Notes under the pieces: generated by a model
Seen by the model: only the letters and a program-made list of their open reading frames with translations
What the model was told of the DNA's origin: nothing
The model's database searches: none
IMG/VR virus record: IMGVR_UViG_3300045282_000093
Location: 1 to 45,086 of that record
Reading direction: 5' to 3' (one strand)
Length of the DNA: 45,086 nt
Origin: a virus
Position numbers and translations under genes: made by a program
Part shown: in pieces, positions 3,263-44,116 of the stretch
Layout of the letters: each line of letters opens with the position of its first letter
How positions within the stretch are numbered: position 1 is the first letter of the stretch

Positions 3263-3399
3263 TCGAGAACGCCGACAGGTTGTACTGGTGCATCATGCGA
3301 GGGATGTGGAAGTGCCTCAGCCGCAAGGACCAGCGTAGGTGGGCCAAGGATGCGCTCTACCTCACGCTCCGTGACTTCAACCCAAGGAGGCCCGCATAA
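3259..3399 (+). CDS. small early protein, unknown
   Basis: 46 aa from a GTG overlapping the previous TGA (GTGA). It reads MIENADRLYWCIMRGMWKCL followed by an Arg/Lys/Trp-rich stretch. The stop-start overlap and open frame support it. No family recognised. Confidence 0.5.
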   Translation: MIENADRLYWCIMRGMWKCLSRKDQRRWAKDALYLTLRDFNPRRPA

Positions 3400-3695
3400 C
3401 ACCTTGACCGGCCCCCAAGCTCCAATCCACGTCCTCAATGAGCCTAATTGGCGAGGGTGGGCGGGGCTTGGGAGCCACTCCTGTGTTTGTTGATTTGTAA
3501 TCAATATGCCCATAGCTTTGTGACGGTCCCCTTGTCAGGCTAAGTTAGGAGGCGGAATCAAGGCCAAATCCTATGCCGTCACAGTTCATAGCCCCACCCA
3601 ATGCGGGTCGCGCCCTCTAGGGGCGTAGCGTACACGCGAGAGGCGCAGCGCAACGCACGGTAGCTGACCGCAGGGGCTACATTGTTTCACTGTTT

Positions 3696-3766
3696 GGCCG
3701 CTCGTGGTGGGCTGTGAGCATTGCCGGGGCACAATACTAGCCCCGGTGCCAGCCCCCCGAGCGGTC
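3696..3766 (+). ncRNA. stem element 1 (inverted pair of the genome-wide 12-mer)
   Basis: A 71-nt element that folds as one long stem: GGCCGCTCG/CGAGCGGTC (9 bp, one G-T), then GGGCTG/CAGCCC (6 bp), then CCGGGGC/GCCCCGG (7 bp) with a 9-nt loop. A second element with the same outer design lies at 8079-8146. The right arm is an exact copy, and the left arm a one-mismatch inverted copy, of the dispersed word CCCC[CA]CGAG[CA]GG, so it could equally be a paired protein-binding site in DNA. Confidence 0.45.
3753..3764 (+). repeat. dispersed 12-mer CCCC[CA]CGAG[CA]GG (one of 12 exact copies)
   Basis: Exact copies, plus strand: 3753-3764, 5767-5778, 8133-8144, 11777-11788, 14256-14267, 28596-28607, 39867-39878. 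Minus strand: 13654-13665, 18235-18246, 32685-32696, 33234-33245, 43327-43338. One-mismatch copies include 3698-3709(-), ~5131, ~9209, ~10860, ~11849(-), ~31730(-), ~38953(-) and ~40430. By hand, fewer than one exact copy is expected in 90 kb of both strands at this GC content. Copies fall both in gaps and inside genes in different reading frames. Function unknown. Confidence 0.7.
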
Positions 3767-3870
3767 TACTTGTTGCGTAGCGGTCTGTGCCCACGCACGG
3801 TAAAGCCCACAAGTGAGGTTGTGGCGCCGCTACCTAGTACAACCCACAGCGTACAACCACTGGAGGCCCC

Positions 3871-4086
3871 ATGAAGTCCACAGCCCTAATTGACCTCGAC
3901 TCCCTTCTGGGGCCAGTCGATACCGGCCCCCCACAGAAGTGGATACATATAACGGCACATAGAACAGCGGGGCCCACGACAGCATTTTGTGGTGCTATCG
4001 TCAGGAACGCTAGTAGCCCCTACGGAACACTTCCCGGCCGCCGCTGTCCCGACTGTGAGCGTATCCGAAAGGCGCGGCTCGGATGA
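3871..4086 (+). CDS. small zinc-ribbon-like protein
   Basis: 71 aa with a C-terminal CPDCERIRKARLG and an earlier FCG, together resembling a small Cys-rich treble-clef or ribbon. CTGGAGG lies upstream of the ATG. It overlaps the next gene by 4 nt (ATGA). Function unknown. Confidence 0.6.
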   Translation: MKSTALIDLDSLLGPVDTGPPQKWIHITAHRTAGPTTAFCGAIVRNASSPYGTLPGRRCPDCERIRKARLG

Positions 4087-4736
4087 CACGCGCCGAAGTC
4101 ATAGCACTCCTCGACCCCATACCCGCCGACCGCGACAGGTATAGCAAACGCGGCGCAGCACTCGACGCCGCGGGCTTCACCTACCTCGGCGCTGGTGTAA
4201 TCAAGCGCGCATGGAAGTCCCCCTGTGGCACCTACGTAGTCCGCCTCCACAACACCAACCTTGATGGCTCTCCCACCAACGGAGCCTGCGAAGAACGCAA
4301 CTACAACGACGCACCTCCCAAGGTGTGGCCCTACTTCCTACAAGTAGAACAACACACCGGCTACCAACTCCAAGCCTTCGCCACACCCGGCAAGACCTGT
4401 GCTCAATCTGGCTGCGATGGCTACCCTGACGGTGTGGTTGATAGCCATCCACAGAACCACATCCACGACACCGAAGGCCGGCCAATCTACTTCGACTACG
4501 GCCACCCCAACGCAATCAAGGCCGACAACCCCGGCGCCTACTGGAACAAGCATCCCGACCCGGCCGCACCGGCCGAAGCCCCCGCGCCGCCCCTCGGGGA
4601 GCCGATTGGCAACGGCGACCCAATGCTCACAGAGAAACTAGCCCAACAACAGGCCGTAAATGACATTTACGTCGAAAACCTGAACAGGATGATTGGATTG
4701 GCCGCAGTTCCCGTAGCAGAAGCACAACCGCAGTAA
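4083..4736 (+). CDS. unknown early protein, possible kinase-like fold
   Basis: 217 aa. Residues ~33-54 (YLGAGVIKRAWKSPCGTYVV) resemble the glycine-rich loop and beta3 strand of kinase-like folds. HIHDTEGRPIYFDYGH (~142-157) resembles the catalytic-loop-to-DYG segment. The lysine expected in beta3 appears as Arg (VVRL). The C-terminal ~60 residues are Pro/Ala-rich then helical. If kinase-like, it may be degenerate. This assignment is by eye only. It overlaps the preceding gene (ATGA). Confidence 0.4.
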   Translation: MTRAEVIALLDPIPADRDRYSKRGAALDAAGFTYLGAGVIKRAWKSPCGTYVVRLHNTNLDGSPTNGACEERNYNDAPPKVWPYFLQVEQHTGYQLQAFATPGKTCAQSGCDGYPDGVVDSHPQNHIHDTEGRPIYFDYGHPNAIKADNPGAYWNKHPDPAAPAEAPAPPLGEPIGNGDPMLTEKLAQQQAVNDIYVENLNRMIGLAAVPVAEAQPQ

Positions 4737-4756
4737 CCCCTAAGGAGGGACGCTAC

Positions 4757-5062
4757 ATGAACACCAAGAAGGCCATCCCCACCCGGACGTGCGAGGTCGG
4801 CAAGATCGACAGCTCCCCGGATGGCAACCCGGCAGGGTTCGGCCAGTACCGCATCGCCTTTTTCGAGCGCGATGTGGATGGTCACCCCACGGGCCACGCC
4901 TCCGCCGTCGAGCCGGTGAAGTCCGCCGCCGACCTCAACACCATCCTCGATGAGTGGGTGGACTCGGGCAAGCTCCCCTCCGGTGTCACGCTGGAGCAGG
5001 CGCGCGTCCGCACGTCCTCGCCCAGCCTCGCCGAGATGCTCGCCTCCCTCGGTGGCGAGTAA
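4757..5062 (+). CDS. early protein, unknown
   Basis: 101 aa (MNTKKAIPTRTCEVGKIDSS...), with a CTAAGGAGGG ribosome site 8 nt before the ATG. It looks like a small alpha/beta protein with an acidic second half (LNTILDEWVDSGKLP). No family recognised. Confidence 0.65.
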   Translation: MNTKKAIPTRTCEVGKIDSSPDGNPAGFGQYRIAFFERDVDGHPTGHASAVEPVKSAADLNTILDEWVDSGKLPSGVTLEQARVRTSSPSLAEMLASLGGE

Positions 5063-5080
5063 GCACACCCTCCACCCCAC

Positions 5081-5172
5081 GCCCAATAGGTTGGGCCACG
5101 GTGGTTGAGCAGTAGGGGCACAGGAGGGCTGCCCCCGAGAGGTAGGAAGCTACATCCTACTCTCAGCCCTCC
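5081..5172 (+). ncRNA. two tandem hairpins between early genes
   Basis: First hairpin: GCCCAA-TAGG-TTGGGC (5081-5096). Second: GGAGGGCT (5123-5130) with AGCCCTCC (5165-5172), enclosing GAGAGGTAGGA (5137-5147) with TCCTACTCTC (5155-5164) and a 7-nt loop; the helix has one bulged G and a C-rich internal bulge. No T tract follows, so it is more likely a processing, stability or regulatory element than a terminator. The left arm contains a one-mismatch copy of the dispersed 12-mer. Confidence 0.5.
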
Positions 5173-5205
5173 CCACCTTTCCACACCCCACAGGAGAACG
5201 CACCC

Positions 5206-5331
5206 ATGTGGTACTACACCGGAGTAGTTGTCTGCTGCATCCTCGGCCTCTACATCATTGGGGAAATCCTCTACCACATCCCCTACTGGATTTGCGCCTA
5301 CATCGACTGGATCGCCCGCGATGAAGAGTGA
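5206..5331 (+). CDS. membrane micropeptide
   Basis: 41 aa, MWYYTGVVVCCILGLYIIGE then ILYHIPYWICAYIDWIARDEE: one long hydrophobic segment with aromatic ends and an acidic tail. CAGGAG lies upstream. It overlaps the next gene's ATG by 11 nt. Confidence 0.55.
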   Translation: MWYYTGVVVCCILGLYIIGEILYHIPYWICAYIDWIARDEE

Positions 5332-5860
5332 ACACGAGGTATCCTACCTCTCCCCTCACCCCTACAACATCGTCAAGCAAGTGATACCCAACATCACCAT
5401 CGTGCCCGATAGGAAGGGCTCACACTACCGTTGTGAGCATGAGATACACACCCCCTATGCCTGTGTCGATGAGTTCCTAGTGATGCACCCCAATGATACC
5501 AACGACGCCTTCACTTGGTATCACGAAATGGCCCACTCTATCATGGGCGGTATGCGCCTCAAGTGTGGCACCTCCACCGCGTACTACCGCGAATGGTTCA
5601 ACAACCGTGTCACCATCGTAATGGGCTTCCGCCGCATCTTAAATCGCACGTTCTTACGCACTGAAGAAGCCGCTGCCGACCGCGTAGCACTCATGCTTGG
5701 CTGGAGCACACGCACCGAATCTAACGCCGCCACCAACCGTTTGGGCCCCGACTTCAGAGACTACGCCCCCACGAGCGGCCGATCCAAGCACTACGCCTTC
5801 GTACAGAGCATGCGTACCCTGAATTGGATACGCAAGAAGTTCCCCAACTACGCGATCTAA
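5321..5860 (+). CDS. HExxH metallopeptidase-fold protein (ArdC-C/zincin-like)
   Basis: 179 aa. FTWYHEMAHSIMGG (~64-77) carries the HExxH zinc motif (H68, E69, H72). A downstream TEEAAADRVALMLG (E115/E116) supplies a candidate third ligand, the arrangement seen in the zincin domain of ArdC-type antirestriction proteins and related M78-like peptidases. The ArdC N-terminal ssDNA-binding domain is absent. ATG 5321 fits the overlap with the preceding micropeptide. A role against host restriction or another defence is inference from family resemblance and early position. Confidence 0.55.
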   Translation: MKSEHEVSYLSPHPYNIVKQVIPNITIVPDRKGSHYRCEHEIHTPYACVDEFLVMHPNDTNDAFTWYHEMAHSIMGGMRLKCGTSTAYYREWFNNRVTIVMGFRRILNRTFLRTEEAAADRVALMLGWSTRTESNAATNRLGPDFRDYAPTSGRSKHYAFVQSMRTLNWIRKKFPNYAI

Positions 5861-5876
5861 GGGAGGTGATACAACA

Positions 5877-6242
5877 ATGCGTGACTACACTATCAAACCC
5901 CTCACTCTCGACGAGGCCAAGGCCGGTGTTGCCGCCCTCATTCTCAAGTACCCCGACAACATCAACCCCATGATTGGCAAGGCCTGTGTTTACGACGACG
6001 GAAAAGGGCGCCACTGCATCATTGGACAACTCCTCACCGAACTCGGCGCTCCCCTCCCACTCGAAAACGGCATGGCTGACCGAGTTTGTACGGGCTATTA
6101 CGAATCGAACGGACCCCGTACCATGACCGACGAAGCGGCCGAGTGGTGCTCCGAGGTCCAGAGGCGCGCTGATGGATACAGCGCCACAAACCCCGGCGTG
6201 AGTAATCCTGTGAAGTGGGGCACCATCAAACTGCCTGCGTAG
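5877..6242 (+). CDS. early protein of the C-x(10)-C-I-I-G type, unknown
   Basis: 121 aa. KACVYDDGKGRHCIIGQLLT resembles a segment common in small phage proteins where Cys, Asp-Gly and CIIG/CxxG occur together. A perfect GGGAGGTGA ribosome site precedes the ATG. Function unknown. Confidence 0.65.
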   Translation: MRDYTIKPLTLDEAKAGVAALILKYPDNINPMIGKACVYDDGKGRHCIIGQLLTELGAPLPLENGMADRVCTGYYESNGPRTMTDEAAEWCSEVQRRADGYSATNPGVSNPVKWGTIKLPA

Positions 6243-6277
6243 CAGCCCCCATACCACGCGGAGGGAGGTGACAATAA

Positions 6278-6637
6278 GTGGAAGACCTCACACCAATGCA
6301 GAAGCACGAGCAGGAGTTGAGCGCCCTGCCCAACGAAGCCCTAGTGCAGAAGCTCATCGCCTGCGAGAAGTCCCTCGACGCCGCAATGGGCGTGCATCTC
6401 CTCACCCTCAAGAGCATCTCAGTAGGCATGGAGATCGGCATCCCCATCGCAATGATCATGAAGTCCATCGCCCCAGTGCTGCTGGAGCGCAACAAGTGGA
6501 TGGAGAAGATTGACAACGAGTTCGGCTTCGACAAGGTGCGGCAGCAGAAGTTTCTCGGCGGCAGGCTCACCGAAAAGGAGATGATCGCCGTCACTCGCGC
6601 AGCCCACGACAAGGAGATGGAGCGTGAAGATCGGTAA
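6278..6637 (+). CDS. helical early protein with hydrophobic centre, unknown
   Basis: 119 aa from a GTG preceded by GGAGGGAGGTGA. Amphipathic helices flank a hydrophobic stretch (~45-65: VGMEIGIPIAMIMKSIAPVL), with a charged C-terminal helix. It could be membrane-associated. No family recognised. Confidence 0.6.
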   Translation: MEDLTPMQKHEQELSALPNEALVQKLIACEKSLDAAMGVHLLTLKSISVGMEIGIPIAMIMKSIAPVLLERNKWMEKIDNEFGFDKVRQQKFLGGRLTEKEMIAVTRAAHDKEMEREDR

Positions 6638-6767
6638 GCTGCACGGACTGCGGCTCCCGCCCACCACCCTCCTCGACCTTGACCCCGAAACCCACAACCC
6701 TCACAAGGGGGACGTAGTGGAGGTGATTCATGAAGCGCAAGCACCCACATCCCGTTGTCCCCCGTAG
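6624..6767 (+). CDS. small early protein, unknown
   Basis: 47 aa from a GTG inside the end of the previous gene (overlap 14 nt). It reads MKIGKLHGLRLPPTTLLDLD..., and GGAG lies just upstream. Its end overlaps the next gene by 38 nt. Supported mainly by start, spacing and open frame. Confidence 0.4.
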   Translation: MKIGKLHGLRLPPTTLLDLDPETHNPHKGDVVEVIHEAQAPTSRCPP

Positions 6768-6918
6768 AAAGGTCTTCGGGGTCACGCCAACCCACACCCA
6801 CTGCACTCTTGCAAGTGTAGTGGGCCTCCTCATGCACTACTTCGGACACCCGTGGGTAGTGTATGGCCTCACCCTCCTCCTCATCGCAGAAGTCTTGCGG
6901 TGGCACATCGAAGCATAG
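6730..6918 (+). CDS. small membrane protein
   Basis: 62 aa: a basic N-terminus (MKRKHPHPVVPRRK) then a hydrophobic segment from about residue 28 (LASVVGLLMHYFG, VVYGLTLLLIAEVL). GGAGGTGA sits just before the ATG. Probably inserted with the basic end in the cytoplasm. Confidence 0.6.
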   Translation: MKRKHPHPVVPRRKVFGVTPTHTHCTLASVVGLLMHYFGHPWVVYGLTLLLIAEVLRWHIEA

Positions 6919-6947
6919 GCACAACCCACAACCCACAAGGAGCCACA

Positions 6948-7286
6948 ATGTCGTTGAAGCAGAGCATCGTTGGATCGTGTCTAGTGCGCGGTGATATCCG
7001 TATCGCGGAAGGCACCGACGCCCCGTTCCAGACACAGGAGGCCAGTGTCCGGGCCAGCAGCGCGGCCCGGCCGGGCGCCATCATCGTGAAGATCGGCTGC
7101 CGCACCTACTCCATGCCCAAGGAAACCGCACTGGAGTTGGCCACCGCCCTCTCCAACGCGGGCAACTCCCAGTACGCCAAGCCCGAACAGCAGCCCAAGA
7201 AGTTCGAGGTGGTGGATGGAGGCGGCAAGGTCCTCGCTACTGTGGAAGCCCTCCAGAAGTCCGACATCACCGTCCGTCTGGCCTAA
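6948..7286 (+). CDS. early protein, unknown
   Basis: 112 aa (MSLKQSIVGSCLVRGDIRIA...), with an AAGGAG site before the ATG. The second half has two helix/strand blocks (MPKETALELATALSNAGN, then VVDGGGKVLATVEALQ). No family recognised. A longer upstream frame lacks a ribosome site. Confidence 0.65.
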   Translation: MSLKQSIVGSCLVRGDIRIAEGTDAPFQTQEASVRASSAARPGAIIVKIGCRTYSMPKETALELATALSNAGNSQYAKPEQQPKKFEVVDGGGKVLATVEALQKSDITVRLA

Positions 7287-7300
7287 GGAGGCCCCACCCC

Positions 7301-7651
7301 ATGCACGAATACCTCAACATCAAGGCTAGCGTGGGCAATACTTGCTTCGCTGCCGTGAAGAATCCCCCCACCGACCTTCCTGTGTCGGTGGGGGAGGTCC
7401 AGCAGGAGTGGCCCAACGAACCGGGCTTTCGTCTCGGCAACATCTTCCTAACCTTCGGCACCCAAGCTGCCTACATGCCAGCAGCCGCAGCCCGGAGGAT
7501 TGCCGACGCCCTCAACGAAGCCGCCACCCTCGCAGAGGCGTACAAAGCCCCCATGAAGCGGTGGGAAGTAGTGGTTGCAGGGAAGGTAGCCTACAACTGC
7601 ATCTCCTCCACCACGAAGCCCACCATCCGAACCAAGAGAGGAACCAAGTAG
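7301..7651 (+). CDS. early protein, unknown
   Basis: 116 aa, beginning MHEYLNIKASVGNTCFAAVK, with a helix (AAARRIADALNEAATLAEAY) near residues 62-81. AAGGAGG lies upstream. A strand-rich first half then a helix resembles the neighbour at 6948, which suggests but does not prove distant relation. Confidence 0.6.
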   Translation: MHEYLNIKASVGNTCFAAVKNPPTDLPVSVGEVQQEWPNEPGFRLGNIFLTFGTQAAYMPAAAARRIADALNEAATLAEAYKAPMKRWEVVVAGKVAYNCISSTTKPTIRTKRGTK

Positions 7652-8017
7652 ATGATGCGCTATCCCAAGAAGCTCGTTGACGCAGTGAAGCGTGGCGCCG
7701 TCCTTATGGACGCCATCTCCCCCGACTGGGCACAGAAGCTCGTGGAGAAGAACGGTGCCCTTGACATGGATGACGCCGACCACTGCGTGCTTGGCACCAC
7801 CATGAAATCCTACTGGACTGCCCGGGACGTGATCTTCGCCCAGTTCTCCAAAGAGCCCCTCCCCACCCGTGATGGTTGGTCGCTCCGAGACCTCCAAGCG
7901 GAGAAGTATGGGTTCCTCCCAATGGGGGAAAATTGGAAGGATACTTCCAACCAACTCGCCGGCCTCTGGACGGCCGCTGCAACGGATCGCGTGACCGGGC
8001 GCTACAGACCGCGCTAG
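7652..8017 (+). CDS. small early protein of the D-x-x-x-C-V-L-G type
   Basis: 121 aa. DAISPDWAQKLVEKNGALDM followed by DDADHCVLG, and a later EKYGFLP...LAGLW block, match the pattern of hypothetical phage proteins with LDMSDxxxCVLGQ and GFD...L...W. Function unknown. Start follows the previous TAG directly (TAGATGATG). Confidence 0.6.
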   Translation: MMRYPKKLVDAVKRGAVLMDAISPDWAQKLVEKNGALDMDDADHCVLGTTMKSYWTARDVIFAQFSKEPLPTRDGWSLRDLQAEKYGFLPMGENWKDTSNQLAGLWTAAATDRVTGRYRPR

Positions 8018-8510
8018 CGTTCCAAGGATGCCCTAGGATCGACGATCATCCCCGCCCTAGGGTTCTGAGTCAAGGTTCGGCCTCTCGGGGCTAGCAGCCC
8101 GGCCAATCGGGGTAGAATCCCCAGCCATACGGCCCCCCGAGAGGTCGGAAGGTCAAGAGAGTGTCAAGGGTTTGATCCCCGCCTCCCTATAGACTCCTAC
8201 TCCGGTGTTCAGGGGATTTGGCGGAGCCAACTTCCGGGCGCTCCCGCGACCGGGAGCTTGATCCCCGGAGGGGTCTATTAAGGCGAACGCATCAAAGCAA
8301 TTCCAGCCAATGTTTATGCGGCTGCAATGCACTTTTTAGGGTGCGGAGGCACATCAAAGTCCTCGCAACCCGCTGGGCCGCAGCGAATTGCAGCATATCA
8401 AAGATTGGATTGATTCGGAGTTGTGGGAGCATCAATCAAACCCCGCCCTTCACAAAGGTTTAACGAATCCCCCGGCCCCGAGCCGAATCAGAACCCAAAC
8501 GGAGGAATCT
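8018..8510 (+). other. 493-nt non-coding gap with dyads and short repeats
   Basis: No convincing gene. It holds CCCTAGG/CCTAGGG (8031-8037/8056-8062) enclosing GATCGACGATC, the stem element 8079-8146, and GGGTGCGGAGG/CCTCGCAACCC (8339-8349/8361-8371). It also holds ATCAAAG-type words at 8291, 8353, 8397 and (ATCAAAC) 8435, plus long-range pairs GCTGCAAT/ATTGCAGC and GCAATTC/GAATTGC. The right half is noticeably AT-richer. It could hold small RNAs or a replication origin. Confidence 0.45.
8079..8146 (+). ncRNA. stem element 2 (inverted pair of the 12-mer)
   Basis: 68 nt. Outer helix GGCCTCTCGGGG/CCCCGAGAGGTC (12 bp, one G-T), with GGGG-TAGAAT-CCCC inside. Compared with element 1 (3696-3766), the outer helix keeps GGCC-n-CTCG/CGAG-n-GGTC but swaps a G-C pair for T-A, a compensatory change. 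The right arm (8133-8144) is an exact copy of the dispersed 12-mer. RNA element or paired DNA-binding site are both possible. Confidence 0.45.
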
Positions 8511-8831
8511 ATGAAAACGCTTCAAGAGGCAGTGGATGCACTCCCCGATACCGCAGATGGTATTAGGGACTACTTCCTCGCCGAGGGCATCAAGACCCCC
8601 GCAAACTACGTGGACATCGTTGTGAACTGCCCGATGTCCCTCTATCTACAGCGAGAGACGGGGCTCCATATCGGAGGAGCTTCTGGCCTCTTCGGCGAGT
8701 TTAGGGCAGAGAAGTACGGGTGCTACGTTGTAGGAGGGCAGAAAGTATCTCTCACTTACGCAGCCACGCAGTTCGTGGGGAACTTCGACCATGGTATGTA
8801 TCCCGAACTGAGAGAACGGGGGAAGAAATGA
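8511..8831 (+). CDS. small protein of the CPMxxYL family, copy 1
   Basis: 106 aa. Begins MKTLQEAVDALPDTADGIRD, has NCPMSLYLQRETG in the middle and GNFDHGMYPELRE at the end. The next gene shares all three blocks, and the gene at 12789 shares the middle one. Small proteins of this layout are common in phages and unassigned; the Cys may be part of a metal or contact site. GGAGG precedes the ATG. Confidence 0.7.
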   Translation: MKTLQEAVDALPDTADGIRDYFLAEGIKTPANYVDIVVNCPMSLYLQRETGLHIGGASGLFGEFRAEKYGCYVVGGQKVSLTYAATQFVGNFDHGMYPELRERGKK

Positions 8832-9142: not shown

Positions 9143-9143
9143 T

Positions 9144-9287
9144 ATGCCCCAGTACGCATACCTTGAAGGGGACCACTGCACCAAGCATCCCCACTACACC
9201 GCCACACGCAAGCCCACGAGCGGCTGCTCAAAGTGCTGGGTCCTGTATATGGTGGCGTTGTGGAAGCAACAGAAAGTGCTACCATAG
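9144..9287 (+). CDS. small zinc-finger-like protein
   Basis: 47 aa. HCTKHPHYTATRKPTSGCSK then C gives a C/H...C-x-x-C pattern like small phage proteins with HPxYxAxRxPxxxCxxC. It starts 1 nt after the previous TAG. Probably binds zinc; function unknown. Confidence 0.6.
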   Translation: MPQYAYLEGDHCTKHPHYTATRKPTSGCSKCWVLYMVALWKQQKVLP

Positions 9288-9291
9288 AGTA

Positions 9292-9533
9292 GTGGGCACC
9301 GCACCCTCATACTACCGTCACACCATCCCCCTACCCCGCGACTGGGCCTCAGGTTCCTGCGGAATGGTTGTGGGTGGAAGCGGCCAATGGGTACAGCCCA
9401 CGGTGGGGCGTTGACCGAGCCCCGAAAGCCTAGGCTCCCACTATTCCTCCTGCTGAGGCTCTGGTGGTCAAGCAAACTTGGTTCGGTTGGGGAGGCGCAG
9501 GCCCATTCGTATTAGCGCCTCAGCGGTGCCCAC
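9292..9533 (+). ncRNA. candidate structured RNA closed by an 11-bp helix
   Basis: GTGGGCACCGC (9292-9302) is perfectly complementary to GCGGTGCCCAC (9523-9533). Inside are GCCTCAG/CTGAGGC (long-range), GTGGG/CCCAC, GGGGC-GTTGACCGA-GCCCC, CAAG-CAAA-CTTG and AGGCGC/GCGCCT next to the closing helix. The 242 nt contain no convincing gene, and a normal ribosome site for the next gene follows. I cannot match it to a named RNA class. Alternatives are a chance set of dyads or a recombination site. Confidence 0.4.
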
Positions 9534-9552
9534 AAACAACAAAGGAGAAGGC

Positions 9553-9612
9553 ATGATTACAAAAGATGCCGCCTTGCGCCGCGCCGTCTCTGGACAGGAG
9601 GAACGCCGGTGA
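9553..9612 (+). CDS. possible 19-aa leader peptide
   Basis: ATG with AAAGGAGAAGG upstream encodes MITKDAALRRAVSGQEERR. Its TGA overlaps the GTG of the next gene, so it may serve translational coupling. Too short for certainty. Confidence 0.3.
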   Translation: MITKDAALRRAVSGQEERR

Positions 9613-10577: not shown

Positions 10578-11537
10578 ATGCGCGGTGCGTGGCTGAGTGA
10601 ACTCATCACCAAGCCCCCGCCGCCTTGGCTATTCCAAGGCTTCATGCGATCAAATAGCATCACCATGATTAGTGCTCCACCCTCCAGCAACAAAACCACC
10701 TTCATGCTGGGGATGGCGTTGGCGTTGGACTACAACCTTCCCCTCCTTGGGCAGTTCAACCCAACGCATCCCCGCAGTGTGTTGTTCATTGGCGGCGGTG
10801 ACAGCCCCGACTGGGACTATGGCGCCCTAAGTCTCAAACTCATGCGGGGTTACAGCATCGCCCCCGAGAGGAGGGCAATGTGTGGTATCGCCGTCCTCCC
10901 CTATGAGGGGTTCAAGCTAACCGATGTAGCCTCACAAGAGTGGTTGAGCGAGTGGATCAATCTCAACCATCCCGATGTCATTATGATTGATACTCTCCTA
11001 AGTGTACACCGGGGAGATGAGAATGACAACGGGCAGATGAACGCAGTGATGGCAGTATTGAAGGCACTCAGAGATAAGCACAAGATCACGATTGTATTTG
11101 GCCACCATACCGCCAAGCCCTCCCAAGGCAACGCCGGAACCGGCAACTACGCGGCCCGTGGCGCAAGCGCAATCAGTGCAGCATGTGACTTCCATTTCCA
11201 GTTGTCGAAGCGTGGTGACAGGGTGAAGGTGCTGGCAGCTAAAGGCCGTGGCGCAGCAATGGAAGAACCTGTCACCTACTTCGACATATCCCGCGACCTG
11301 ACAGACGAGGGCCCCAGCATAAAGCTCCTCGCCCCGACCGACAAGAAAGAGCTACTCCTGCTCGCGGCCCTCAAGTCAGGTCCCAAGTCCCGAAAGGAAC
11401 TCTCCCTAGTATTGCGTCCCTTATTCCCAGATGCAACGGAGCCACAACTCTACAACGCTGTGGCAAACAACCTCGTGATGATGAAGGCTCGAAGGCTAGT
11501 GAAGTCCCCCTCCCGAGGAGTATGGTCCCTATGGTAA
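10578..11537 (+). CDS. RepA-like/AAA_25 replicative helicase ATPase
   Basis: 319 aa, RecA-fold ATPase. APPSSNKTT (33-41) is the Walker A loop, with Asn where Gly usually precedes Lys. VIMID (134-138) is Walker B. TIVFGHHTAK (171-180) is the motif-3 strand, and the Gly/Ala-rich GNYAARGASAISAACD segment is typical of RepA/RadA-like hexameric ATPases. It probably unwinds DNA ahead of the polymerase at 18148. ATG 10578 lacks a ribosome site; the frame is open upstream to 10506 and GAGGTGA (10504-10510) would suit an ATA at 10518, so the true N-terminus is uncertain. Confidence 0.75.
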   Translation: MRGAWLSELITKPPPPWLFQGFMRSNSITMISAPPSSNKTTFMLGMALALDYNLPLLGQFNPTHPRSVLFIGGGDSPDWDYGALSLKLMRGYSIAPERRAMCGIAVLPYEGFKLTDVASQEWLSEWINLNHPDVIMIDTLLSVHRGDENDNGQMNAVMAVLKALRDKHKITIVFGHHTAKPSQGNAGTGNYAARGASAISAACDFHFQLSKRGDRVKVLAAKGRGAAMEEPVTYFDISRDLTDEGPSIKLLAPTDKKELLLLAALKSGPKSRKELSLVLRPLFPDATEPQLYNAVANNLVMMKARRLVKSPSRGVWSLW

Positions 11538-11611: not shown

Positions 11612-12421
11612 GTGCGCTTTAACATCTCCCAACTGAAGCTCCACCACCAATGCGCCCAGAAGTCCCACTACCGGGACATCCAGAAGCGTGGTCCAGTGGA
11701 GAAGTCAGAGCCCCTCACCCTCGGGACCCTCTGGCACAAGGCCATGGCAGACCTGATGACGGGGAGTGAGACACTACCCCCCGAGCGGGCGATGGCACCC
11801 GAGGAGATTCAGAAGAAGTGGGACGAGACCCTAGCACCCCTCGTCCCGCTCGTGGTGGACATGCTCCCCCGTGGGTACAAGGTTCTAGCAGTGGAGCAGC
11901 CCCTCAGTGTGCCCATCGGCCCACACTGGTTGGAGGGAACGCCAGACCTATTGATTACATGGAACGGTAAAATCTGGCACGTCCAGTACAAAACCCTGAA
12001 CCCCTCGACGCCGCTGCACATCTACACAGAAACCCAGCGGGTGGATTGGCACGAGAGCGGCTACGAGGCGATGATTTGTCATAACTATGACGATCCCCCG
12101 GTCGGCGGCACCATCCTAATCGTTGCGCGGAAGCTCTCCGCGAAGAGCATCGCCGAGAAGCCCGGCCAAGCCGTGAGTGTGCATTACTTGGTGCGGCGCC
12201 CCGCCGAAGTAGCGGAGGCCCTCGCCGATATGTACACCGAGATGGAGGCGATCTACAAGGAGGGCCCGAAGGGAGAGTACAACCGGATTCAGAAGAACCC
12301 CGGCGCATGTGGCGGGGTGTACGGCAACCAACTCTGCCCGTACTTCCATGTGTGCTATGGAGGGAAATCCATCTTGGACTTCCCCATCATTCCAGACAGG
12401 TATACACAGGAGGCTAAGTGA
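11612..12421 (+). CDS. PD-(D/E)XK nuclease, RecB/Cas4-like with probable Fe-S cluster
   Basis: 269 aa from a GTG. GTLWH (38-42) is the GxxxH motif. EGTPDLLITW (PD at 111-112) and HVQYKT (Q125, K127) are the catalytic PD and the (D/E)XK position, here Q-x-K. Four Cys (14, 233, 242, 248, the last two as CPYFHVC) are placed as in Cas4/AddB-type enzymes that hold a 4Fe-4S cluster. It is likely an exonuclease acting in recombination or replication. It sits between helicase and primase. The Gln at the (D/E)XK position is a variation whose effect on activity I cannot judge. Confidence 0.75.
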   Translation: MRFNISQLKLHHQCAQKSHYRDIQKRGPVEKSEPLTLGTLWHKAMADLMTGSETLPPERAMAPEEIQKKWDETLAPLVPLVVDMLPRGYKVLAVEQPLSVPIGPHWLEGTPDLLITWNGKIWHVQYKTLNPSTPLHIYTETQRVDWHESGYEAMICHNYDDPPVGGTILIVARKLSAKSIAEKPGQAVSVHYLVRRPAEVAEALADMYTEMEAIYKEGPKGEYNRIQKNPGACGGVYGNQLCPYFHVCYGGKSILDFPIIPDRYTQEAK

Positions 12422-42433: not shown

Positions 42434-44116
42434 CTACACAGGCTCATACGGCCCTCGCTCGGTATCCGAATGGACTCTATCATACAGTTTGAGGGCTTGG
42501 GGATTGGTGGGCCAGCCCTTCAATACCTCATCGCCGGGCTGGTAGGGAGGGGCCTCCTCCTGCACCATCCCAATCTTACCTGCGGGGGTGTAGACACTGG
42601 GGTTGAAGACATCGGCCGCAGCATCGGCCCAATCGTCGTGGGCACTATTGCCGATACGAACCATCTGATCCACAAGGCGCTCGGCACCCATAGCATTGTC
42701 CACAAGGCGAACATACCCATCGGTCCAGTAAGAGGCAGCAGTGATAATGCGCCCAACCTTCTGCTTCCCGGCACGGTTGAGGGGGAAGAACACTGGCATA
42801 GCGATTCCCTTAGCGTGACATGCAGTGCGGATAGCATATTCCCACACTCCTGTCTTGCCTCCGGGTTCAGTCTCATCGGTGATAGCGAACACCCGGCGTC
42901 CTAGGGCTTTCTGCTGCTGGATCACAATGACTAGTTCGCGGAGGAAGTCCTCCATGCGCCAGATATTGGAGCCCTTGCCGCCCAAATAGTACACATCGCC
43001 ACTCCCATCCCGCGAGTGGCCCCACCACTGGAGCACACTTTCATCCCCTCGGGCTTGGCGGTTAGGGCTTTTGAACGCAGTGTCGAGGTGGATGCTCACA
43101 CGGATGTTCTTGGGGACATCTTTGGGGGAGCACCATACCTGTTGTGATTGGGCGCGGGTGAATGGGTTGAACTCGCTAGAGGCCGGGTCATTCATCATCT
43201 GGGCGTAGTAACGAAGGTTGTTGTCGGCTTCGTAGTCGGAGAGGAACTTCTCACTGGCGCGCTCAGGATAGATGGGGATGCCTTCGTGGTCCCTAGCTTG
43301 GAGGTAGTACACGTGGTAGCGACCGCCCTCTCGGGGGGCTAGGTCCGGCATGCTCATGCCTGTGAGGGTCTTGATGCCGAACTTACGGAGGTAGTACCCG
43401 AAGTGGTCACCATCACCGTAGCGGGTGCCGGGCATCATGAAGAAGGAGGTGTCACCGAACACGGGGGTGAGGGATGCGATGTGGTCATTCACAACCTTGA
43501 ACCACTCGGAGTGGAGTCCCATGGCCTCGTAGGAGGTGGGGTCATCGAGGATGCCTGCGTCGGGGTGCATGCCCGTGAGGCCGCGCTCCACGCCCCACAC
43601 ACCGAAGGAGGGGTTCTTGTTACTCACGTTCTTGCGGGCGCCGTGGGTGGTGCCGTCCTTGCGCCACTCGCGGTTCTTGTCGTACCAGTTGCCGAAGAGG
43701 TAGGTGAACCATGCTTCGGGTTCGTCACCGCTGATGATCTTCTTGAGTGGCTCAACGAACTCGGAGGCCCGGGTGGAGTTCTCACTTCCAGTGTAGGTAC
43801 TCACTTCGGGGTCGTGGATGTGGAGCCAGAGTTGGCCCGCTTGGGTGAAGATTGTGGTCTTGCCGAAGAAGCGGGGTACGAGGGGGACGAGGTACATGGC
43901 TTCGCGGGTGGCGAGCCAGTGGAGGGCGTGCTCTTGGAACCACTCGCACATGGGCTTGTGGATGCGGGGGGTGAACCAATGGGGCTTCCCGGTCTTGCCC
44001 TTGTGCCACCGCTCTGCTTGCTGGTCGATGCCGAAGGCTACTCGGACGAACCAGTAGAACTCCTTGTAGCAAATATCTTGCCAGAGTTCACGCTCGGCTG
44101 CGGTGTCCCATGCCAT
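42434..44116 (-). CDS. terL: terminase large subunit
   Basis: 560 aa. VPRFFGKTT (80-88) is the Walker A of phage packaging ATPases. DAGILDDPTS is Walker B. The nuclease half has SIHLDTAFKSP (first Asp), a central ITDETEP and DDWADAAADVF (last acidic residues). It drives DNA into the prohead through the portal. TAATG junction with the upstream gene. Confidence 0.9.
   Translation of the reverse strand: MAWDTAAERELWQDICYKEFYWFVRVAFGIDQQAERWHKGKTGKPHWFTPRIHKPMCEWFQEHALHWLATREAMYLVPLVPRFFGKTTIFTQAGQLWLHIHDPEVSTYTGSENSTRASEFVEPLKKIISGDEPEAWFTYLFGNWYDKNREWRKDGTTHGARKNVSNKNPSFGVWGVERGLTGMHPDAGILDDPTSYEAMGLHSEWFKVVNDHIASLTPVFGDTSFFMMPGTRYGDGDHFGYYLRKFGIKTLTGMSMPDLAPREGGRYHVYYLQARDHEGIPIYPERASEKFLSDYEADNNLRYYAQMMNDPASSEFNPFTRAQSQQVWCSPKDVPKNIRVSIHLDTAFKSPNRQARGDESVLQWWGHSRDGSGDVYYLGGKGSNIWRMEDFLRELVIVIQQQKALGRRVFAITDETEPGGKTGVWEYAIRTACHAKGIAMPVFFPLNRAGKQKVGRIITAASYWTDGYVRLVDNAMGAERLVDQMVRIGNSAHDDWADAAADVFNPSVYTPAGKIGMVQEEAPPYQPGDEVLKGWPTNPQALKLYDRVHSDTERGPYEPV

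Follow-up and report, generated by a model that had tools for sequence, protein, structure and literature searches.

Two hairpin-forming elements in the early region of a phage genome, E1 and E2, are back-to-back copies of an asymmetric word, CC(C/A)CGAGnGG, which recurs about 25-30 times across the same genome, on either strand. A single change between E1 and E2 is not enough here to demonstrate selection on pairing. We put at roughly even chances that E1 and E2 are paired sites for a putative DNA-binding protein, in which case the hairpin would be a by-product. These data also carry a wider caution: two inverted copies of a degenerate, dispersed DNA word can give a false appearance of RNA covariation.

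Genome and setting of the elements

The window, which is the whole stretch of DNA analysed, is the 45,086-base virus record IMGVR_UViG_3300045282_000093 (positions 1 to 45,086). The record has a direct terminal repeat of 127 nt and looks complete. Its genes include the phage families terminase, portal/adaptor, major head protein and DNA polymerase, together with a helicase-like ATPase, an exonuclease and a Sak4-like protein. A rightward early/replication arm extends from ~2.1 to 20.4 kb, and the remainder is a leftward arm. By coding-potential scoring, the early region has its longest non-coding gaps at ~1585-2087, 3263-3870 and 8018-8510, with one more near 9143-9610; E1 is in the second of these gaps and E2 in the third. 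ARAGORN detected no tRNA in the window, and sigma-70 promoters and terminators showed no excess. Separately, words containing GCCGGC, CCGCGG or CTCGAG are under-represented in coding sequence across the whole window, which suggests restriction-site avoidance, and the early protein encoded at 5327-5860, which has a WYHEMAHSIMGG (HExxH) motif and no Pfam match, is a possible small metalloprotease. The features discussed below are as follows.

3263..3870, + strand: non-coding gap containing E1 (coding-potential scoring)
3410..3476, + strand: hairpin E0, 67 nt, long nearly perfect stem GGCCCCCAAGCTCC/GGGGCTTGGGAGCC, motif-free, in the same gap as E1 (closing-helix scan)
3696..3766, + strand: E1, 71 nt, two inverted copies of the dispersed word, with an interior hairpin that is stable on its own (fold z, interior shuffles)
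3698..3707, - strand: left motif copy of E1, CCACGAGCGG (pattern scan)
3723..3747, + strand: inner 8-bp stem of E1, GCCGGGGC/GCCCCGGT, with 9-nt loop ACAATACTA (folding)
3755..3764, + strand: right motif copy of E1, CCCCGAGCGG (pattern scan)
5133..5142, + strand: motif copy CCCCGAGAGG, unpaired and intergenic, within a different hairpin at 5123-5172 (pattern scan)
8018..8510, + strand: non-coding gap containing E2, from the stop of gene 7652-8017 to the ATG at 8511 (start codon read off the sequence)
8079..8146, + strand: E2, 68 nt, two inverted copies of the dispersed word (folding)
8081..8090, - strand: left motif copy of E2, CCCCGAGAGG (pattern scan)
8135..8144, + strand: right motif copy of E2, CCCCGAGAGG (pattern scan)
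11779..11788, + strand: one of the 19 motif copies in listed genes, given as an example (word scan)
43327..43336, - strand: example of a motif copy in the terminase gene (word scan)

The first-pass annotation had placed two stem elements at 3696-3766 and 8079-8146, with common outer arms GGCC-n-CTCG / CGAG-n-GGTC, an n pair that is G-C in E1 and T-A in E2, and right arms that are exact repeats. All of this was borne out: both elements lie inside non-coding gaps, and the right-arm sequences CCCCCCGAGCGG and CCCCCCGAGAGG each occur three times in the genome. There is no convincing third element in the window with arms like those of E1 and E2.

The arms belong to a dispersed, strand-independent word

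The core CC(C/A)CGAGnGG has 25 exact-pattern sites in the genome. An extended pattern, CCCCCGAGnGGTC, allowing at most 2 mismatches, matches 33 sites as against 7.8 in dinucleotide shuffles, and an iterated weight matrix (PWM) gives ~29 strong sites, 17 of them oriented with transcription and 12 against (counted from the position list). Inside genes the core word occurs 19 times versus 2.4 in synonymous-codon shuffles, a count matched in 0/300 of them, which rules out codon usage as its origin. The coding copies fall in all phases and on either strand, and both transcription arms contain them. The 10-mer pattern was defined after E1 and E2 had been seen, but rankings of 8-mers and 12-mers, which are free of that bias, recover the word independently. 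When all 8-mers were compared with synonymous shuffling, the top two over-represented 8-mers were both parts of the word. Each alone is borderline after allowing for ~33,000 words; the evidence is strong because both fall in one longer word, which is also the source of seven of the eight 12-mers occurring at least three times. The 8-mers ACTAGCCC and TGGGCTAG are also over-represented, and CTAGCCC is found near several motif copies, mostly just upstream (window positions 3737, 8094, 14247, 43342 and 44823).

Folding strength differs between E1 and E2

E1 folds at -50.8 kcal/mol (z -6.4), with 0/200 shuffles as good, and E2 at -41.9 kcal/mol (z -3.1), with 1/200 as good. In a scan of the whole + strand (90-nt windows, step 30), E1 has the lowest z genome-wide and E2 ranks ~36th. 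With the 9-nt arms held fixed and the interior shuffled, the interior of E1 is exceptional (0/1000 shuffles, z -3.9), whereas that of E2 is no better than chance (264/1000, z -0.6). Hence, of the proposal that both elements share an inner CCGGGG/GGGG stem with an A-rich loop, only the half concerning E1, with its 8-bp stem, holds; E2 has a bare GGGG/CCCC and the loop TAGAAT. On the minus strand, E2 folds as strongly as on the plus strand and E1 almost as strongly, which is a point in favour of DNA sites. Across the genome, exact 9-mer inverted repeats are mildly in excess (22 versus 13.6, maximum 22).

Other hairpins occur in the early gaps. Domain-closing helices in the gap 3263-3870 exceed those in shuffles (15 versus 5.7, 0/60). 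Despite this excess, we do not claim that the gap is an array of tRNA-sized domains, an idea we dropped because single domains other than E0 and E1 fold weakly (z only -1.3 to -2.2). A further intergenic hairpin at 5123-5172, GGAGGGCTG/CAGCCCTCC, holds one unpaired copy of the word and is followed by a short T-run region; it is a possible terminator.

The variable base pair is a free position of the word

The paired change between the outer helices, G-C to T-A, had been read as a sign of selection on pairing. The change is real, but it is unpersuasive as proof. The variable pair corresponds to position 7 of the word, its free n, where the non-element copies have C 11, A 8, G 4 and T 2 times. 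Two copies therefore agree at this position with P 0.33, and both elements would agree with P ~0.11. The other variable position of the word (C/A) differs between the two arms of E1, giving a T-C mismatch in the fold. The argument from compensation fails. Against 600 random inverted pairs made from the other copies, the arms of E1 are ordinary (fractions 0.29-0.41), with a helix as long in 0.29 and a duplex energy as good in 0.32 of the pairs. Those of E2 are somewhat better (0.018 for helix and 0.12 for duplex energy; 0.02-0.41 depending on the measure).

Two inverted pairs lie in early gaps

Exactly two pairs of strong sites stand minus-then-plus no more than 80 bp apart; each lies in an early gap, and the copy starts are 45-48 bp apart in E1 and E2. 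Two such pairs in early gaps were obtained in 0.08% of random-placement trials (P = 0.0008, with the gap set restricted to early-region gaps). This non-random placement supports a functional paired arrangement, whether it is read as duplex DNA or as RNA. The core-to-core spacing is 60 in E1 and 57 in E2, a difference of 3 bp or about a third of a helical turn, and hence a rigid two-protein complex is not favoured.

The first-pass annotation had named a paired DNA-binding site as the main alternative to RNA pairing, and it is this alternative that we favour, because the word is a DNA motif that occurs throughout the genome irrespective of strand or phase. A putative sequence-specific protein, most simply phage-encoded, would recognise the word; two molecules per pair would then influence the downstream early gene blocks, which begin at ATG 3871 and ATG 8511, perhaps by local looping or as a roadblock. 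The foldability of the + strand transcript would largely follow from the inverted placement of two copies. Against this reading, we recognised no DNA-binding regulator, and no HTH or repressor family, among the proteins scanned with Pfam and/or PHROGs, many of which have no assignment. The pairing in the interior of E1, which extends beyond the motif, counts against a pure DNA site, and E1, with its real interior hairpin, may have come to act also as RNA or as a cruciform. It is improbable, in our estimate, that both elements are dual, with a phage protein binding the 12-bp word without orientation bias at early-leader pairs and the same DNA yielding a regulatory RNA hairpin.

Weighing of alternative explanations

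E1 is the strongest fold in the genome, with an interior beyond chance, and both elements stand on the sense strand in the leaders of early gene blocks. These properties would fit elements that act as RNA: hairpins of ~70 nt, carried on early transcripts, would be processing sites, terminators/attenuators or cis-acting antitermination RNA. We regard this as possible though doubtful. The helix of E2 reaches 15 pairs when taken at 8076-8149, a length equalled by 1.8% of random motif pairs, and the excess of domain-closing helices in the gap 3263-3870 points the same way. However, that gap as a whole, without E1, has a z of only -1.75, the interior of E2 is at chance level, and the arms are accounted for by the DNA word, with a paired change that chance alone would give with the probability calculated above. 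A role in termination is further disfavoured, since no T-run (U-run) follows 3766 or 8146, and terminator-like sites number 7 versus 6.9 in shuffles, none of them at E1 or E2. Rfam yielded no match above the gathering threshold in the window, the best weak ones being unrelated (E 3-9).

Two hairpins could also have arisen in long gaps by chance from a GC-rich genome and a mildly repetitive word. The overall z of E2 is one that many genome windows reach, and the inverted repeats noted above are only mildly in excess, both of which speak for chance; nevertheless, we think it unlikely, given the placement of two pairs in early gaps (P = 0.0008), the shuffles of E1 (0/200 whole, 0/1000 interior) and the enrichment of the word (0/300 synonymous shuffles). 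It is less likely still that the phage carries the word as a genome-wide signal, DNA-uptake-like or other and possibly host-derived, whose inverted intergenic pairs serve as stem-loop terminators, as with the DNA uptake sequences (DUS) of Neisseriaceae. The organisation is similar, a 12-mer dispersed through the coding sequence of both strands with inverted pairs between genes (PMC3630211), but there are only about 25-30 copies, in a phage, and the terminator-like T-run is absent.

Relatives in sequence collections

The collections searched contain no close relatives of this phage: the best identities are 34% for the capsid, 35% for the polymerase and 37% for the terminase (polymerase/terminase up to 38%). 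An IMG/VR search with the helicase, capsid, polymerase and terminase returned remote relatives only, and there were no near relatives by DNA among phages. We found no homologues of E1 or E2. A direct scan for the element pattern gave five viral matches, about the number expected by chance, none of which resembles E1 or E2 beyond the pattern; one match in an archaeal genome was rejected, since it folds differently. The word is absent or at background in the relatives found, which are remote (~35-38% protein identity): the core occurs 6 times in 39.5 kb of one (G001), in which the extended pattern is also not enriched, and twice in 20 kb of another (L103). As a separate observation, in the remote relative IMGVR_UViG_3300009678_000081 (L097) an 11-bp inverted repeat, GGGTGAGCGCC/GGCGCTCACCC, overlaps a near-consensus promoter TTGACA...TATAAT at ~10785-10830, in the manner of an operator. 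The word described here points to a dispersed-motif system without strand preference, in a phage lineage that lacks close relatives in the collections searched.

Comparison with known systems

The RNase III processing hairpins of T7-type phages are intergenic, have an irregular stem with an internal loop and lie among early genes. E1 and E2 resemble them in these respects, but differ in that their arms consist of copies of the dispersed word. Antitermination by HK022 put RNA acts in cis through the zinc-binding domain of the RNA polymerase beta' subunit. The HK022 putL and putR RNAs are two ~70 nt elements downstream of early promoters, each consisting of two adjacent stem-loops with conserved unpaired residues (PMC9378689). 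The size and place of E1 and E2 are similar; however, E1 and E2 are each one hairpin closed end to end, which also counts against their acting as RNA of this kind.

The stoperators/operators of cluster A mycobacteriophages (L5, TipsytheTRex) are asymmetric words of ~13 bp, present at ~20-30 per genome and oriented with transcription (PMC9283540, PMC6550527). The number and length of the sites described here (25 exact, 29 strong PWM sites) fit such a system. In contrast to stoperators, which lie in short intergenic spaces, the copies here are mostly within genes and have no predominant orientation (17 same, 12 opposite); the sequence is unrelated, and no repressor gene was recognised among the proteins scanned with Pfam/PHROGs. 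If a cognate protein exists, it would define a stoperator-like system without orientation.

To our knowledge, the word is unrelated to known DUS dialects. DUS also differ in being present in thousands of copies per bacterial genome, as against about 25-30 in one phage here, and in sequence; the terminator T-run is absent here, and a role in uptake is implausible for this record alone. The DUS of Neisseriaceae is a word of ~12 bp dispersed over both strands of coding DNA, and its intergenic inverted pairs form stem-loops (PMC3630211). The same combination of a dispersed coding word on both strands with intergenic inverted stem-loop pairs is found here, and inverted-pair DUS are the nearest structural counterpart of E1 and E2.
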